Of a stretch of DNA of 64,000 bases, positions 45,334 through 59,619 are shown piece by piece. The stretch comes from Brachybacterium squillarum M-6-3. Lineage in GTDB: Bacteria > Actinomycetota > Actinomycetes > Actinomycetales > Dermabacteraceae. The notes below the pieces were generated by a model. That model did not search any database. It was given only the letters and a program-made list of their open reading frames with translations, and was not told where the DNA came from. The stretch covers positions 744,001 to 808,000 of the forward strand of contig NZ_AGBX01000001.1 in the NCBI RefSeq assembly GCF_000225825.1. The letters run 5' to 3'. Each line of letters opens with the position of its first letter. The stretch's first letter is position 1. The position numbers and the translations under genes were made by a program.

Positions 45334-46047
45334 CGTTGCCACTCCTTCGCAGTGGTCGTTCGTCAGATCGGGGACAGCGTATCGGGTTCCCGGCCATGCG
45401 GACGACACACCGCCTCGAGCCTTGACATCCCCCACCGCGGTCCTTCCCGCGCACGACTCGCGGACCGGCGGTGCCTCGCGGAACCGGTCATCCGGTGCCC
45501 GACCTGCTGCCGGCGGTCCGGCCGCCCCGCGCCCGGCCGGACCGCCGCCCCGCGCGAGGACCCGGGATCCCCTCTCCTCGTCGAGGCCTCCTGCCGACCC
45601 CGCGAGCACCCGACCCCGCGAGCACCGCCGCCGGACGACGCCCCGACACCGCCCGCCGTCCACACCCCCGACGACAACACTTGGACAGTCCTCTTCTTCA
45701 CGGCTGTTGATCCGGTGGATGAATGACAACGTCCCAGCTCGCACGGATCACCGGCGCCCCGGATCGCTCCGGACGGATCCGGGAGCGCTCGTGGGCGGGG
45801 TGTGTACGAGGGACCCCGGACCCCCGATTCCTGTCATTCGACCGTACACAACGGTTCCTGCAGGAATGACAAGAACTCCACACTGTCCACAGCGTCGTCC
45901 ACATTGGGGATGAGCGAGGTGCTCGGATTCTTGTGGTTCCGCAGGTCGTCACGGCCGCGTCATCTCGCGGACACCCGCTCCGGATGCACTCCCGGTGCTC
46001 CTCACGAGCACCCTCCGCCTCCGCGCCGCGGGACACGGCCGGGTGGC
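45334..46047. other. dnaN-dnaA intergenic region, candidate oriC
   Basis: A 714-bp gene-free stretch at the classical actinobacterial origin position. DnaA-box-like CTGTCCACA (45883-45891) and TCGTCCACA (45895-45903) lie 12 bp apart start to start. The octamer GAATGACA occurs at 45721 and 45864 and inverted at 45832-45839. The most AT-rich parts are about 45670-45730 and 45830-45935. The 45430-45660 part is very GC-rich and uninformative. Only two good boxes are seen, few for an origin, so the assignment is moderate. Confidence 0.6.
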
Positions 46048-47745
46048 TCAGGGACGGGCGGAGGAGCTCGAGCTCTTGATCTTCGCGGTCAGCTCGGTGA
46101 CCTGGTTGAAGATCGCCCGGCGCTCCTTCATCAGCTCGCTGATCTTCTTGTTCGCGTGCATCACGGTGGTGTGGTCGCGGCCGCCGAACTCCTCGCCGAT
46201 GCGGATCAGGGGCATGTCGGTCAGCTCGCGGCACAGGTACATCGCGATCTGGCGCGCGGAGACCAGGCGCCGGCTGCGGCCCGAGCCCACGATCTCGTCG
46301 ACCGACAGCCCGAAGTAGGTGGCGGTCTGCGCGATGATCGTGGAGGCGGTGATCTGGGCGCCGTCGTCGTGGGAGAGCAGGTCCTTCAGGACGCTCTCGG
46401 CCAGGGTGACGTCCATCGGCTGCCGGGAGAGCGAGTGCAGGGCCTGCACCCTGATCAGGGCGCCCTCCAGCTCGCGGATGTTGGTGGCGATGTGAGAGGC
46501 GATGTACTCCAGCACGTCGTGGGGCACCTCGCCGGTGTTCTCCTGTGCGACCTTCTTGCGCAGGATGGCGATGCGGGTCTCGAGGTCCGGCGGCTGCACG
46601 TCCGTCATCAGGCCCATCTCGAAGCGCGAGCGCATCCGGTCCTCGAAGCCGCCCAGCTCCTTGGGCGGCAGGTCCGAGGTGATGACGATCTGCTTGTCCG
46701 TGTTGTACAGCGTGTTGAAGGTGTGGAAGAACGCCTCCATCGTCTCCGGGGCGCGCTGCAGGAACTGGATGTCGTCGATCAGCAGGATGTCGATGTCGCG
46801 GTAGCGGCGCTGGAACTCCTGCGCCTTGCCGAACTGGCCGGACTGCACCGAGTTGATGAAGTCGTTGGTGAACTCCTCCGAGTTCACGTACCGCACCACC
46901 ACGTCCGGGTAGAGGGTCTGCGCGTAGTGGCCCACCGCGTGCAGCAGGTGGGTCTTGCCCAGGCCCGAGCCGCCGTAGATGAACAGCGGGTTGTAGGCCT
47001 TGGCGGGGGTCTCGGCCACGGCCGAGGCTGCGGCCTGCGCGAAGCGGTTCGAGGAGCCGATCACGAAGGTGTCGAAGGTGTACTTCGCGTTCAGCCGGGA
47101 GTCCTCGCCGAGGGTCGAGGCGGGGCCGGTGCCGCGGGAGATCCGGGTCGGGGCCGGCACGGGCGAGGGGGCGGAGGCGCCGGAGAAGCCCGCGTAGGGG
47201 GAGGTCTCCGAGAAGCCGCGGCCCTCACCGGCGTCGACGCCGACGGGGGCGGCCTCCTGCGGGGAGTCGTCGCCCGAGGTCGCGGAGCCCTGGCCGGGCA
47301 GGGGGGCGCGGCTGCCGGAGCTCGGCGACTGGCCCTCGCCGGTGGCCCGTCGGAACGGGGGATCGGTGTGGACGGACCGCTCGGAGTTCTCCACATCGTT
47401 GTCCACAGAATGTGCAGGAGCAGAGGCGGATGCCGAGGTCGCGCCGGGGACGGGGGTGGGCTTGTCGCCCTCGTCCTCCAGCAGCAGCGACTCGTCGACG
47501 GTCACCGCGAAGCGCATCTCGCGGCCCGTGGCCTCGCTCAGGGCCTGCTTGAGCTCGGCCACGATGCGGTGCTCGAACAGCTCCTTGGCGGAGGTGGAAG
47601 GCGCTGCGACCAGGGCGGTGTCCGCCACCACGGCCATCAGCCGGGAGAGCGTGAGCAGGGCGATCACCCGTGGGGAGACCCCGGCGTCCCGGCGCAGGCT
47701 GCTCAGGGTGTGCTCCCAGATCGCGTCGACGCTCTCGTCGGTCAT
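46048..47745 (-). CDS. dnaA: chromosomal replication initiator DnaA
   Basis: A 565-residue initiator. Domain I (about 1-85) begins [17 protein letters not shown]; domain II is a long Pro/Ala/Ser-rich linker (about 90-230); the AAA+ domain carries Walker [17 protein letters not shown] and Walker [12 protein letters not shown]; the domain IV recognition motif is [17 protein letters not shown] 47745 is preferred because GGAG lies 6 nt upstream; ATG 47757 adds four residues (METE). The long domain II itself contains a perfect DnaA box in its DNA. Confidence 0.97.
47388..47407 (+). promoter_or_regulatory. DnaA boxes inside the dnaA gene
   Basis: TTGTCCACA (47399-47407) is an exact consensus box, preceded by TCTCCACAT (47388-47396). 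Both are in the codons for the variable domain II linker, where the DNA is free to carry binding sites. Confidence 0.65.
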
Positions 47746-47781: not shown

Positions 47782-47826
47782 TTTTCCACAGAATCCCCAG
47801 CATTGTGGACCGATGTTGTGGAGGGT
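47782..47826. promoter_or_regulatory. DnaA-box-like sites upstream of dnaA
   Basis: TTTTCCACA (47782-47790), and inverted TGTGGACCG (47804-47812) and TGTGGAGGG (47817-47825), lie 37-80 bp upstream of the dnaA start. Suitable for autoregulation. Part of the 47746-48147 divergent dnaA/rpmH gap, which contains no gene. Confidence 0.6.
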
Positions 47827-52537: not shown

Positions 52538-52631
52538 GCGGGTCCGGACGGCGGGGCCCCGACGACGGCGGTCCCGGATGCGGACGGGGTGACTCAGGGT
52601 GGGCACCGACGGTGGAAGAAGGAATGTGGAG

Positions 52632-54593
52632 ATGACGCAGAAGCGAGGACTCGGACGCGGCCTGGGCGCCCTGATCCCCGGGGCCGGCGCCGCCCCCCAG
52701 CAGGCCCCGGCCGCCCCCGCGGAGGAGGCCCCGGCGGCCGCCCCGTCCCCGGCGGAGGCCGCGCCCCTCGCGGAGACCGCCGGCGCGGCCGAGGTCGGGC
52801 AAGCCGCTGCGGCGGCATCCTCCCCGTCGGAGGCACCGGTCCCGGAGGCACCCGTCTCGGCGGCTCCTGCCTCCGAGACCCCCTCTGTGGAGGAGACCCC
52901 GGCGCTGCGCACCCGCACGCAGCCGACGCCGGAGCCCGAGCAGGGCAGCGCCGCGGCGGAGCGTCCCGTCGACATGTTCTTCTCCGGCGAGCAGGCCGGC
53001 TCCCGCGAGGAGCGGGCACGCGCCGAGCGCGGGTCGGCCCGTGACCTGGCCGGGGACATGGCCAAGGCCGCCGCCGAGCGCCGCGGCCGCGGCACCTCCG
53101 TCCGCTCCACCGCCAAGGGCTCCTCCGCGAGCACCGAGACCGCCTCCGCCGGCCGCGGCGCGTCCACCGGGAAGAAGTCCGGTGCCACGGGCTCCGGGGG
53201 GAAGAAGTCCCCCGGCGGCGCGGCCGCCTCCAGCGCCCGCAGCTCGTCCTCCCGCAGCACGGGCTCGGCGACGGCGAAGAAGAAGACGTCGAAGACCTCG
53301 GCGTCCTCGGCGTCGGCGAAGCGTGGGGCGACGAAGGGCGGCGCGTCGAAGGGCGGCGCGGCGACGCGGTCCTCCACGACGTCGGCCCCCGGCACGGGAG
53401 CCGTCAGCGAGACTGCCGCGCAGCCCACGTCGCCTCGCACCGCGGCGGAGTCGAGCCCGGTGGTGGACGTCGAGGAGGTCCCCCTGACCCCGGCGCGCGC
53501 CGAGTCCTCGCCCGTGACGACCGTGGAGGCGCAGGCTACCGCTCCCGCCGGAACACCGGAGTCCGCCCCTGCCGAGCCCGTGGAGTCGGCGGAGTCTTCT
53601 CCCGCTCCCGCCGAGCCCTCGGAGCCGATGGAGACGACCCCCGTCCCCGCCTCGGCCGCGGAGGCCGCTCCGACCACCGCCGCCGCCGATGAGGAGCCGG
53701 TGGTCGCGCAGGATCTCTCGCCGATCGGCACCACCCCCGCGGGCGGCGACCTGCTCCCCGTGCCGGGCGCCGAGTTCGCCGAGATCCCCATCCACGAGAT
53801 CCGCGAGAACCCGCGGAACCCCCGCACCCTCTTCGACGAGGACGAGCTGGACGAGCTGGCGGCCTCCCTCCGCCAGGTGGGCGTGCTGCAGCCGGTGGTG
53901 GTCCGCTCGATCGCGGTCACCGAGAACGGTGAGTCCTTCGAGCTGGTCATGGGTGAGCGCCGCTGGCGCGCCGCCACCCGCGCCGGCCTCCCCTCGATCC
54001 CGGCGATCATCCGCCAGACCAGCGATGACGACCTGCTGCGTGACGCCCTGCTGGAGAACCTGCACCGCTCGCAGCTCAACCCCCTGGAGGAGGCTGCCGC
54101 CTACCAGCAGCTGCTGGAGGACTTCGGCTGCACCCAGGACGAGCTGGGCGAGCGGATCGGTCGCTCCCGCCCGCAGATCACCAACACTCTGCGGCTGCTG
54201 CGCCTCCCCCCGCTCGTGCAGCGACGTCTGGCCAGCGGTGCCCTGAGCGCCGGCCACGCCCGCGCGCTGCTCTCCCTGGACAACCCGGCGCTGATGGAGG
54301 AGCTCGCCCAGCGGATCGTCGCGGAGGGCCTGTCCGTCCGGGCCGTGGAACGCCTCGTGGCCGCCGGTGGTGCGGCGCAGCCGGCCGCCAGGACGGCTCG
54401 GCGCTCGACCTACGATCCGCACGTCGTGGACCTCACGAGCCGGCTCTCCAACCGCCTGGAGACCCAGGTGCGGATCGACGTCGGCAAGCGCAAGGGGCGC
54501 ATCACCCTGGAGTTCACCAACCTGGAGGACCTGGAGCGTCTGGTGGAGAACATCGGGCTGGATCCCGCGGAGGTCCTCGGCAGCGAGGACTGA
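52632..54593 (+). CDS. parB: chromosome partition protein ParB with very long linker
   Basis: A 653-residue CTP-dependent clamp, almost twice the common length. Residues 1-16 (MTQKRGLGRGLGALIP) form the ParA-stimulating peptide. Residues about 17-371 are low-complexity Ala/Pro/Glu then Ser/Thr/Lys/Gly sequence without a predicted fold. The CTP-binding core starts near residue 372 (PVPGAEFAEIPIHEIRENPR), with GVLQP, GERRWRAA and ENLHRSQLNP motifs; a helix-turn-helix TQDELGERIGRSRPQITNTL binds parS; the last 50 residues are the dimer domain. ATG 52632 is chosen for the conserved N-terminal peptide. Its likely sites are in the array 0.6-2.5 kb downstream. Confidence 0.95.
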   Translation: MTQKRGLGRGLGALIPGAGAAPQQAPAAPAEEAPAAAPSPAEAAPLAETAGAAEVGQAAAAASSPSEAPVPEAPVSAAPASETPSVEETPALRTRTQPTPEPEQGSAAAERPVDMFFSGEQAGSREERARAERGSARDLAGDMAKAAAERRGRGTSVRSTAKGSSASTETASAGRGASTGKKSGATGSGGKKSPGGAAASSARSSSSRSTGSATAKKKTSKTSASSASAKRGATKGGASKGGAATRSSTTSAPGTGAVSETAAQPTSPRTAAESSPVVDVEEVPLTPARAESSPVTTVEAQATAPAGTPESAPAEPVESAESSPAPAEPSEPMETTPVPASAAEAAPTTAAADEEPVVAQDLSPIGTTPAGGDLLPVPGAEFAEIPIHEIRENPRNPRTLFDEDELDELAASLRQVGVLQPVVVRSIAVTENGESFELVMGERRWRAATRAGLPSIPAIIRQTSDDDLLRDALLENLHRSQLNPLEEAAAYQQLLEDFGCTQDELGERIGRSRPQITNTLRLLRLPPLVQRRLASGALSAGHARALLSLDNPALMEELAQRIVAEGLSVRAVERLVAAGGAAQPAARTARRSTYDPHVVDLTSRLSNRLETQVRIDVGKRKGRITLEFTNLEDLERLVENIGLDPAEVLGSED

Positions 54594-54915: not shown

Positions 54916-54936
54916 TGTGGACATCCCTGTGGATGA
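54916..54936 (-). promoter_or_regulatory. DnaA-box pair at the left edge of the parS region
   Basis: TGTGGACAT (54916-54924) and TGTGGATGA (54928-54936), 12 bp apart start to start, the same phasing as at 45883/45895 and 57588/57600. A degenerate parS half (GTTTCACGCGAG, 54894-54905) is just upstream. Confidence 0.5.
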
Positions 54937-55218: not shown

Positions 55219-55232
55219 GTTTCCCGTGGAAC
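55219..55232 (+). other. parS site 1
   Basis: GTTTCCCGTGGAAC. First strong site of the array, 626 bp after the parB stop. Differs from the canonical GTTTCACGTGAAAC at positions 6 and 11. Confidence 0.82.
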
Positions 55233-55390
55233 CGTCATGGTGGGTGGACGCCGGATCGGGTGGCTGGTTTTGTCGCTGACCGCGCCCCTGTCCGTCACCG
55301 ACACGGAGCGAAGCCACGTGAAGCTACGTCAAATCCGTACAGCTCGAGGCGTGCACCTCGGTGGATAGCTGCGCCGACGCTCCGTCGAGA

Positions 55391-55404
55391 GTTTCCCGTG
55401 GAAC
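55391..55404 (+). other. parS site 2
   Basis: GTTTCCCGTGGAAC, identical to site 1, 172 bp further on. Confidence 0.82.
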
Positions 55405-55670
55405 GCGTGTCAGGCGCGATGATACGTGCTGGAGACCGACCGCTTGCTCGGGGTCGGCTACAGCCGAATACTCATCACCCGGGGAAGGGCACCTGGCCGG
55501 CCAGGGGTAGCGTGGGGCAGCGATCAGCTCCCTGATCGTGGTCGCCTGCCAGGGCCCCCGCACTCCCCTCCGCAGCAGTCGCCAGGCGATGGGTACGTGC
55601 CTGTGTGTCGCTGCGCTGCGTTCTTCGGGTGGGCCCATAGCCGCGTACGTGCTCGGCGTGGTCTGAATGA

Positions 55671-55684
55671 GTTTCCCGTGGAAC
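55671..55684 (+). other. parS site 3
   Basis: GTTTCCCGTGGAAC, identical to sites 1 and 2, 280 bp after site 2. Confidence 0.82.
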
Positions 55685-55769
55685 GCTGCTCTTGGCGCGA
55701 GGCGAGAGTCCGGACCAGTGTGGAGTCAACCGCGCTGCGGGGTGGGATGTCGATCGTTTGACGTTCCGT

Positions 55770-55783
55770 GTTTCACGTGAATC
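55770..55783 (+). other. parS site 4
   Basis: GTTTCACGTGAATC, one mismatch (position 13) to the perfect palindrome. Confidence 0.82.
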
Positions 55784-55873
55784 TTCGCGAGCGCTTGCGC
55801 TCGGACATTCGTGCACCTGTCGCGACGGACAAAAACCACGAGATCATGCTGCTGCGGTGACCCCGATCCACGT

Positions 55874-55887
55874 GTTTCACGGGGAAC
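55874..55887 (+). other. parS site 5
   Basis: GTTTCACGGGGAAC within the 16-mer TGTTTCACGGGGAACA; two changes in the right half. Confidence 0.75.
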
Positions 55888-56018
55888 ACTCACCCCGGTC
55901 CACGTGCGGTCGACACGTGGCGCGTCGCTGATACGCGGTTGAGAGATCAAGAGATCGCGGGAGTTGGTGGTTCCACCAGTGGTGACTGCCATGGCAGGTG
56001 TCTCCGGGCGGAGCTGCA

Positions 56019-56032
56019 GATTCACGTGAAAC
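56019..56032 (+). other. parS site 6
   Basis: GATTCACGTGAAAC, one mismatch at position 2; the right half-site is perfect. Confidence 0.82.
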
Positions 56033-56206
56033 ACATCGTGAGCGTCTCGGAAGCGGCGTGCTGCTTCGGAGTGAGAGTGCAGTCCGCAGTGCAACATCGT
56101 CGCCGTACTCGGCGTTGGCGATGCGCACACGGTCGGAGATACTCGGGCGATTCCAGCTCCCGGTCTTCCGTGGTGGGGAGCGGCTCTCGGCCCGGGGGCG
56201 GGAGGG

Positions 56207-56220
56207 GTTTCACGCGAAAC
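56207..56220 (+). other. parS site 7
   Basis: GTTTCACGCGAAAC, one mismatch at position 9 in the central CACGTG. Confidence 0.82.
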
Positions 56221-56379
56221 ATGGGGTAAAGCGCCTCCCGCGTCCGATTTTGCCAGTCCCCTTTCCGTCCCTCCTGCCGTATTGACTTTGCGGAGGTCCG
56301 GGTGGCAGTACCATCTCTCCCGCGCGTGCCGAGCCCTCTGCTTCAGGTCCGGGAAAGACGTGACGAGACCGGACTCGAT

Positions 56380-56393
56380 GTTTCGCGTGAAAC
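56380..56393 (+). other. parS site 8
   Basis: GTTTCGCGTGAAAC, one mismatch at position 6; the reverse complement of the site 7 word. Confidence 0.82.
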
Positions 56394-56525
56394 CTCGCGT
56401 CTCCACGGGCTGTCGCTCGCGGCTTCCTCGGCAGGTGGGTTCGACGCCGGGACCAGTGCACAGGCATGGGAGTTACCCCCAGCTGGCGAAGCATCACTCT
56501 TCGCGTAGACAGCATCGCGAGAACC

Positions 56526-56539
56526 GTTGCACGTGAAAC
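56526..56539 (+). other. parS site 9
   Basis: GTTGCACGTGAAAC, one mismatch at position 4; perfect right half. Confidence 0.82.
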
Positions 56540-56618
56540 GTTCGGCGTGTCAGCTCTCGCCACATCAGCTGCGATAGCAGGGGCCATAGTGCCTGCGCTT
56601 CCCTCTGCGTCATGTCTC

Positions 56619-56632
56619 GTTCCACGGGAAAC
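56619..56632 (-). other. parS site 10
   Basis: GTTCCACGGGAAAC on the plus strand, i.e. GTTTCCCGTGGAAC (the site 1 word) on the minus strand. Confidence 0.82.
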
Positions 56633-56981
56633 ACACGGATCCAGCGCAAGATGCCGGTACCCCATACTCCTGGCCAGCAAGGCACTGCGCGCGGGCAGGC
56701 CGCCGGTGTCGACGACCTTTCGTGACGTCAAGTATGGGTCTGAGCCCCCGAGGGCGAAGGTTCCGCGTGCTTGTGCTCGTGCGACTGGAACGTGGGGGCG
56801 CGCAGCTGGAGGAGCCACGAGTAGGTCGTCGCTACGCCACGCGTTGGCCGTGGGTGAACGTCCGTGTGCGTGTGCGAGTGGTCGCGGGGCAGTCGGTGGG
56901 AGAGCGAAAGGGAGGGGAGCTGGGTACGGGCGCAGGAATGACTGTCGGCATCAGCGGTCATCCCGTGCGTCCGTCGCGTGC

Positions 56982-56995
56982 GTTTCCCGTGGAAC
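56982..56995 (+). other. parS site 11
   Basis: GTTTCCCGTGGAAC, identical to sites 1-3, after a 363-bp gap that is the largest in the array. Confidence 0.82.
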
Positions 56996-57069: not shown

Positions 57070-57526
57070 CGTCGATCGAACCTGTCCGGTGCGGCGGGCA
57101 GGAAGAGATGGTGGAGTCCCCGTGGAATGAGCCGTGTGATGGACAGCGGCGTCGGCCGGGATCCCCTTCGTCCTCACGTGCAGCGCGCGGGGCGTCGATG
57201 CCCAGTCCGCAGGCTCATCAACCACGGCAAGGGTCTCGGTGGTGATTGTCAATGTGACAGAAACGGAGATCCATGCCGCGACGACGCCAGAGGGAGGGGC
57301 TCCGGCCGCTGCGGTCGACGGCGTGTCGGGCTGTCCGTCGCGGCGGTGGAGCACCTGGTGGACAGTGATGTGGACGACGGGCCGCGAGTCGCCCTGCACG
57401 GTGGAGTGCGCAGCCGTCGTGACGTGCGCGGACAAGTCCCTATATGTGAGGTGAGCCACTCGCAGTCGTGTTCTTGCTGGTCAGACGCGTGAGGGGCTCA
57501 TGTCTGATGCTGTCCGGATCCGCTGG

Positions 57527-57608
57527 TCGTCCACACGACAATGTGGATGAGTGGTGGACGGCCCGGCTCCTCTCTGGTGGACAGTGCTGTGGATAACTCT
57601 GTGGACGT
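57527..57608. promoter_or_regulatory. DnaA-box cluster at the right edge of the parS region
   Basis: TCGTCCACA (57527-57535), inverted TGTGGATGA (57542-57550), TGGTGGACA (57575-57583), the exact box TGTGGATAA (57588-57596; TTATCCACA on the other strand) and TGTGGACGT (57600-57608), five boxes in 82 bp. This is denser than the dnaN-dnaA region. Confidence 0.68.
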
Positions 57609-57765
57609 AGCGTTGGTGCACGTCAGCCTCGGCGTGTCGCTCCGTCTTGACGCGCGGCTCGAATCACCTGGGGCTTGCCAGGTGGACACCGATCGAGACT
57701 CGGGAGTCCGGGCACTCGGAGCAGCGAGCCGGCGTCCGTATCGGAGGGTCGTGCACCGACTCCCC

Positions 57766-58245
57766 TCAGGAGGACGGGACAGTTCCCGGAGCAGCATCGC
57801 TCGGGGACGCGTCGGGGTCGCGGAGCATCCGGTCGACCTCGTGCTTGGGCAGGTTCCCGACACGTCTCTGCTGCACGGCCCACCTCCCCGCCAGCGGAGC
57901 CTGTGCCGGGTCGGACGTGTCCTCGGGTGCTTCCATGCGCCGCACCCCGGTGACGTCCTGCGTCGGCAGATCCCCCAGCTCGAGCACGTCCGCGGGACCC
58001 CCGGAGTCGTCGTGCCCGTTCAGCGCACCGGGTTCGACGGCCCTCAGGAGGAGCCAGGTCGGCAGCTCCTCCACGTCCAGCCGGACGAGGGTCTCCTCGT
58101 CGGGGCCCTCGATGACCGCGGTCAGCGCGCCCGATCCCCAGCGGCGGGCCAGCTCGTGCAGCACCGTCCGTGCCGGTCGGGCGGGCAGGCACCAGTCGGC
58201 GGTGACCAGGAGGAGCAGTGGCGGGCCTGCGGTCGGGCTGTGCAG
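57766..58245 (-). CDS. thioredoxin-fold protein with degenerate active site
   Basis: About 159 residues. After a short leader comes LLLLVTADWCLPARPARTVL, a thioredoxin beta-strand and active-site helix in which CxxC has become CLPA (second Cys lost). Next come a strand ALTAVIEGPDEETLVRLDVE and the cis-proline segment ELPTWLLLRAVEPG; a less conserved tail follows. It sits right after trxB, where trxA often lies. No ATG, GTG or TTG occurs in frame upstream of the fold. A CTG at 58245 has GGGAGG 4 nt before it and is my start choice; GTG 58164 would cut off the active-site strand. Unlikely to act as a disulphide reductase. Confidence 0.6.
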   Translation of the reverse strand: MHSPTAGPPLLLLVTADWCLPARPARTVLHELARRWGSGALTAVIEGPDEETLVRLDVEELPTWLLLRAVEPGALNGHDDSGGPADVLELGDLPTQDVTGVRRMEAPEDTSDPAQAPLAGRWAVQQRRVGNLPKHEVDRMLRDPDASPSDAAPGTVPSS

Positions 58246-58364: not shown

Positions 58365-59453
58365 TCAGGCCTGCACCGGGGCCGCCTGCTCGGCGGCCTC
58401 CTCCGCCTCGGCGGCCGCGGCGGCGTCCTCGCTGCCGAAGGCCTCGAGGTCCGCGAGCCAGCGCTCGGCGTCCAGGGCCGCCTGGCTCCCGGAGCCGGCG
58501 GCGGTGATGGCCTGGCGGTAGGTGTGGTCCACGACGTCACCCGCCGCGAACACGCCCGGCACCGAGGTGTAGGTCGAGCGACCCTGGCAGACGATGTAGC
58601 CCTCCGCGTCGAGCTCCAGCTTCCCGGTGAACAGGTCCGTGCGGGGCAGGTGCCCGATCGCCTCGAACACGGCGTCCGTGGCGACCTCCCGCTCCTCACC
58701 GGTGACGGTGTCGCGCAGCGTCACGGACTCGACCTTGTCGGTGCCGTTGATCGAGGAGACCTCGGAGTTCCAGGCGAAGGAGAGCTTGGCGTCGGCCTCC
58801 GCGCGGCGGGCCATGATCTTCGAGGCGCGCAGCTCGTCGCGGCGGTGCACCAGGGTCACGGACTTCCCGAAGCGGGTGAGGAAGGTGGCCTCCTCCACGG
58901 CGCTGTCGCCGCCGCCGACCACGATGATGTCCTGGTCCTTGAAGAAGAACCCGTCGCAGGTGGCGCACCAGCTCACGCCCTTGCCGGAGAGGCGCTGCTC
59001 GCCCGTCACGGACAGCTTCCTGTACGCCGAGCCGGTGGCGATGATGACGGCCTTGGCCCGGTAGACGGTGCCGTCGTCCAGGGTCAGGGTCTTCACGGGG
59101 CCCTCGAGCTCCACGTCGATGACGTCCTCGTACTCGATGACGGCGCCGAAGCGCTCGGCCTGCTCCTGCATCCTGGTCATCAGCTCGGGCCCCTGGATGC
59201 CGTCCACGAAGCCCGGGAAGTTCTCCACGTCGGTGGTGGTCATCAGGGCGCCGCCGGCGTCCAGGGCTCCGGCCAGCACGATGGGATGCATCTCGGCGCG
59301 GGCCGCGTAGATCGCGGCGGTGTAGCCGGCGGGGCCGGAGCCGACGATGACCAGCTCGTGGACCGTGCCGTCGTCCTGCGGGCCGCTCGCCGCGCCCTCG
59401 GTGGCGGGAGCGGTGGTGCCGAGGATGTTCAGTGCTTGGATGGGCTGGGTCAT
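58365..59453 (-). CDS. trxB: thioredoxin-disulphide reductase
   Basis: A 362-residue flavoprotein. FAD-binding [18 protein letters not shown], redox-active [16 protein letters not shown]-binding [19 protein letters not shown] and the C-terminal FAD motif [22 protein letters not shown]. It has an N-terminal extension of about 30 residues and an Ala/Glu-rich tail of about 30 residues beyond the usual 310-320. ATG 59453 follows GGAAGGATCC. Upstream of the thioredoxin-like gene in the same direction. Confidence 0.96.
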
Positions 59454-59619
59454 GGGGATCCTTCCGGGAGGGGCCGCCCGGCGCGGGGCGGATCGTGGGG
59501 TCGGTGCGGGACTGCTGGACTGCACGGCGGGTCGTGCCGGCGGGTCGGGGTCGTGGGGGGCCGGGGCGATCAGGGACGGCGCGTCGGCGGACGGAGCGGA
59601 CGCGGGAGGGACGGAGGGA

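Follow-up and report, generated by a model that had tools for sequence, protein, structure and literature searches.

A conserved DnaA-box cluster beside the parS array of Brachybacterium, predicted to be an accessory DnaA locus

We present a computational analysis of a dense DnaA-box cluster in Brachybacterium squillarum M-6-3, situated at 57.3-57.6 kb of the window, i.e. the whole 64,000-nucleotide stretch of chromosome that was analysed. On balance the cluster is somewhat better explained than not as an accessory DnaA locus proximal to oriC, a prediction in which titration of the initiator would be its likeliest action. The strongest support for the cluster is the conservation of box order and spacing across species. 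The box groups that flank the parS array are probably not the origin itself but a place where DnaA is locally sequestered or controlled.

Results

Architecture of the core array and its clustering

The core array spans 82 bp (57527-57608) and comprises five DnaA-box-like 9-mers, namely one exact TTATCCACA, two words with one mismatch and two words with two mismatches. All five, the exact box included, had been reported by the sequence-only reading and were recovered on re-scanning the window: TCGTCCACA at 57527 on the forward strand and, on the reverse strand, TCATCCACA at 57542, CTGTCCACC at 57576 (two mismatches), the exact TTATCCACA at 57588 and ACGTCCACA at 57600 (two mismatches). Comparison with the array of congeners places a decayed sixth box, also on the reverse strand, near 57553; in the window itself the array has partly decayed, with a box lost and two others at two mismatches. 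An outer module on the reverse strand (57346-57377) holds boxes at 57357 and 57369 with a spacing of 12 bp, and this group, which the earlier reading had put at 57345-57375, is present together with the pair at 54916/54928 that it had also named. About 50 bp to the left of the core array lies TGCTGGTCAG (57475-57484, forward strand), a variant of the conserved TGCAGGTCAG element, while the conserved TGCACGTCAG element stands directly to the right (57617-57626, forward strand). The core cluster is 11.6 kb away from the boxes of the dnaN-dnaA gap, and its distance to the 5' end of the dnaA frame is 9.7 kb, in agreement with its initial placement outside that gap and about 10 kb from dnaA.

Exact TTRTCCACA words number 6 in the whole 3.19-Mb genome against 4 for the reversed control; as exact boxes are not enriched genome-wide, it is the clustering and not the single boxes that is the notable feature. 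Boxes with at most one mismatch number three in the 82 bp against 0.08 expected from dinucleotide shuffles, and four in 57300-57700 against 0.11 expected, and none of 1000-2000 shuffles attained the observed counts. The 464 kb surrounding the origin contain 45 boxes with no more than one mismatch, for which random placement would give 0.013 triples within 250 bp, and at least three such boxes per 250 bp occur there only at 57369-57596 and at C8:626363-626771. The shuffles and the random-placement count together rule out chance clustering.

Gene context

The gene order, read from translations, is gyrA-gyrB-recF-dnaN on the reverse strand, a gap, dnaA on the reverse strand, rpmH-rnpA-yidD-yidC-jag-rsmG-parA-parB on the forward strand, a gap of 3.2 kb, and a small ORF and trxB on the reverse strand. 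parB (52599-54593, forward strand), whose position is kept in congeners, is transcribed toward the gap, and from the opposite side so are the small ORF (57766-58164, reverse strand), thioredoxin-like by eye (trxA), and trxB (58365-59519, reverse strand). The gap holding the parS array and the cluster is therefore convergent, gene-free and non-coding, and since it is convergent the cluster is not the promoter of parB or of the trx genes; a promoter reading was ruled out on this arrangement. There were no Rfam matches within 44-60 kb of the window and no matches of the spaced GTCATTC-CACA pattern in the genome.

Conservation in the genus, the family and beyond

The dnaN-trxB region was taken from 31 congeners, giving 32 Brachybacterium sequences with the window, and its genes were mapped by tblastn. 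The box order and spacing +,6,-,3,-,13,-,3,-,3,- is common to 24 of these 32, among them the window, so that the phasing of 9+3 bp in fixed order extends across most of the genus. The core array of the relatives has on its left an outer module of TTATGCACA(+)/TGTGCGTAA(-)/TGTGGACAA(-) at a distance of some 160 bp and TGCAGGTCAG at about 50 bp; on its right it has TGCACGTCAG close by and TTGACAG further away. Within the 320 bp around the array 140 boxes were observed against 4.4 expected from shuffles; as two boxes in each sequence had served to pick the anchor, up to 48 of the 140 are not independent. The eight congeners that are more diverged mostly keep boxes at the same place, with the full array absent. 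In the congener G017 (L052) the parB-trxB gap measures 8.5 kb against the usual length of about 3.5 kb, and the core array is still found near trxB.

Most other genera of Dermabacteraceae have a DnaA-box cluster at the same place, and the gap of eleven other families of the order, one representative each, holds zero or one box. When 80 actinobacterial trxB loci were scanned for at least three boxes per 250 bp, all five from Dermabacteraceae had such clusters, against one among the other 75; among the families sampled, the predicted locus is confined to one. DnaA-box clusters of two other families of the order lie on the far side of dnaN and not near trxB (L073:2324-2885, L077:4118-4632).

The GCAGGTCA word, an element of the cluster, recurs in the dnaN-dnaA gap of many relatives, and the TGCAGGTCAG/TGCACGTCAG elements, together with GCAGGTCA at the oriC candidate, may mark a possible site of a further origin-binding protein. 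The phased double box TGTGGAYN5TGTGGAY occurs 122 times in 33 Brachybacterium genomes against 5 times for the reversed control; its matches sit mostly at dnaN-dnaA, inside dnaA and at the parS-side cluster, and it is found in other actinobacterial genomes too.

A second conserved cluster (L086:2363-2771), the one at C8:626363-626771, lies about 163 kb to the left of the dnaN-dnaA gap in this genome. It sits in the convergent gap between pcp (pyroglutamyl-peptidase-like) and rhomboid-like genes, both named by eye from translations, and 28 of 30 congeners have it. Its distance to the dnaN-dnaA gap, measured in eleven genomes, is 163-305 kb, or 4.7-7.7% of the genome. The occurrence of two conserved clusters, both in convergent gaps, fits accessory DnaA loci. 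A further box cluster was seen in two congeners (L110:1383-1547, L112:1337-1488), the former upstream of a gene that is DUF222/HNH-type endonuclease-like by eye.

The parS array and its framing

A motif scan located 11 parS sites within two mismatches of GTTTCACGTGAAAC at 55219-56995, and this array of the window has no DnaA box with at most one mismatch inside it. On its parB side lies the left DnaA-box group (54916-54936, reverse strand), made up of ATGTCCACA and TCATCCACA 12 bp apart. Among the 24 array-bearing genomes, 11-17 parS sites lie to the left of the core array, and in 23 of the 24 the stretch from parB to the first parS has boxes too. These counts make the framing of the parS region by DnaA sites, already asserted for the window, a trait conserved in most of the genus. 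The left group commonly shows the + - - layout again, with steps of 11 and 12 bp, and it is absent in several of the more diverged congeners. DnaA boxes inside the parS array are few overall, some congeners having a few.

The dnaN-dnaA gap and the position of the origin

The conventional oriC candidate is the dnaN-dnaA gap (45344-46047), where boxes at 45883 and 45895, both on the forward strand and 12 bp apart, lie in a strongly conserved block of about 260 bp; these are the only two boxes with at most one mismatch in the gap of this genome. In the 5' part of dnaA a pair of boxes 12 bp apart, TTCTCCACA and TTGTCCACA (47387-47407, forward strand), is kept in most congeners, and a conserved TTTTCCACA box (47782-47790, forward strand) stands just upstream of the likely dnaA start, where it probably serves autoregulation. 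The dnaN-dnaA block has a mean pairwise identity of 0.68 (132 of 263 alignment columns at 85% or more), the core array 0.62 (44 of 114 columns at 85% or more) and the parS region 0.40. Because it is better conserved, has its own phased boxes and follows the usual gene-context rule for oriC placement (PMC4285127), the dnaN-dnaA gap appears the likelier oriC of the two.

GC skew over 464 kb around the origin is weak and inverted, with a cumulative maximum, not a minimum, near the origin, in part because of the coding strand, coding strands being C-rich at third positions. The cumulative maxima fall at 47.8 kb (local) and 67 kb (regional); 46 and 57.5 kb are inseparable by this measure, and third-position and noncoding skew likewise do not separate them. 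Elevated AT content is seen chiefly at the boxes themselves, in the cluster and in the dnaN-dnaA gap alike.

Discussion

The region at 57.3-57.6 kb has the marks of an accessory cluster, that is, boxes outside oriC, conserved position and architecture, and a non-coding setting that provides no promoter for a neighbour. An accessory locus with titration was chosen on account of the two clusters in convergent gaps, the precedents of repression in other bacteria and the mycobacterial accessory sites, and the best reading is a locus of the datA, B. subtilis DBC, Streptomyces or mycobacterial kind, here apparently wrapped around the centromere. In this scheme DnaA would bind the array cooperatively, with the 54.9-kb boxes as the presumed partner of the 57.3-57.6 kb locus across the parS array. 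As it lies about 11 kb from oriC, the locus would be duplicated almost at once after initiation, and the doubled locus could draw DnaA off the new origins, or alter its nucleotide state, and thereby lessen re-initiation. Its placement beside the centromere would put such control inside the origin/centromere domain that is handled by ParA/ParB.

Mycobacterial DnaA has five binding regions, occupied both in vitro and in vivo, and for two of them no counterpart is known elsewhere (PMC7738170); the function of the accessory sites Rv0010c-Rv0011c and Rv3843c-RVnc0040 is unsettled, titration having been proposed (PMC7738170). These sites resemble the present locus in being actinobacterial and outside oriC, and one has a box cluster; they differ in that no parS flanking is described for them, whereas the Brachybacterium boxes flank parS in a convergent gap (PMC7738170). 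According to passages in PMC5742627, PMC4585315 and PMC5010248, DnaA-box clusters curb untimely initiation in B. subtilis and S. coelicolor, and a passage of one review doubts a major regulatory role for the B. subtilis DBCs (PMC5295017). The B. subtilis clusters (Okumura 2012, as relayed in passages of PMC5295017 and PMC5010248) are alike in that there are several outside the origin, some of them oriC-proximal; those same passages do not mention a parS association, and the Brachybacterium locus is a prediction from sequence. The S. coelicolor clusters (Smulczyk-Krawczyszyn 2006, as relayed in passages of PMC5742627 and PMC4585315) share with it the vicinity of oriC and an actinobacterial host and are stated there to repress untimely initiation; unlike Brachybacterium, the Streptomyces loci examined have no three-box cluster near trxB. 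E. coli datA is likewise a non-coding DnaA-box locus with a conserved relative distance from oriC (PMC4585315), but it differs in sequence, lineage and context, and IHF-dependent DnaA-ATP hydrolysis is a datA feature.

Among the options that the sequence-only reading had listed, a titration or accessory role is the best supported, and that of a main origin found no support; the box cluster outside the dnaN-dnaA gap is itself real and conserved. It is very improbable that replication starts chiefly at the cluster instead of at dnaN-dnaA: even though the cluster is the densest near-consensus one near dnaA in this genome, the better conservation of the dnaN-dnaA block and its phased boxes point the other way, and the rpmH-parB operon would face the fork head-on. 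The cluster might instead belong to an extended or split origin, in which DnaA bound there would contact DnaA at the gap 11.6 kb off and aid orisome assembly, like the second half of a bipartite origin. The phased boxes and the GCAGGTCA element that the two regions have in common, and the mere two boxes of at most one mismatch in the gap of this genome, are consistent with such an arrangement, which we nevertheless hold to be decidedly unlikely, given that described bipartite origins cover about 2 kb and have one spacer gene, in most cases dnaA (PMC4285127), against a spacer here of about 11.6 kb with nine genes, that no AT-rich element is prominent apart from the boxes, and that other families of the order do without the cluster.

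A coupling or boundary site, at which DnaA on either side of parS limits ParB spreading or exposes DnaA to ParA/ParB, seems rather unlikely, despite a parS array that in most congeners lies between box groups and has few boxes within it, nearest parS sites at 7-319 bp (left group) and 88-545 bp (core array), and the known action of ParA/Soj or ParB on DnaA in other bacteria (PMC7022226). Bracketing by itself demonstrates no interaction, these distances vary, the left group is missing in some congeners and a few boxes do occur inside the parS array in others. A further, unlikely construction would join both box groups and parS into a combined centromere/replication-control element, with DnaA complexes delimiting the ParB domain and ParA/ParB sensing or modulating the DnaA pool, by which initiation and segregation would be coupled in cis at a family-specific locus. 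That another protein binds these words, or that their pattern arose by chance, is scarcely credible; two mismatches do occur in two of the five here, but conservation, the 12-bp phasing and the return of the motif at dnaA and dnaN make chance untenable, and since the motif is common to the oriC candidate and the region upstream of dnaA, DnaA is the candidate binder. The favoured accessory locus acting by titration leaves the parS flanking and the conservation of TGCAGGTCAG/TGCACGTCAG unexplained.

The kind of locus proposed here is already known. In the open-licence papers searched we found neither its conserved placement around the centromere, nor its restriction to one family among those sampled, nor the shared TGCAGGTCAG element, and no paper joining Brachybacterium, DnaA box and oriC. 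There is no settled account of the tie between replication initiation and origin segregation, least of all for actinobacteria, whose accessory DnaA sites are known yet unexplained. The present case offers a compact, conserved non-coding locus of about 300 bp in non-model bacteria, in which the predicted sites of the two machineries interlock and for which 24 natural variants of one array are at hand.
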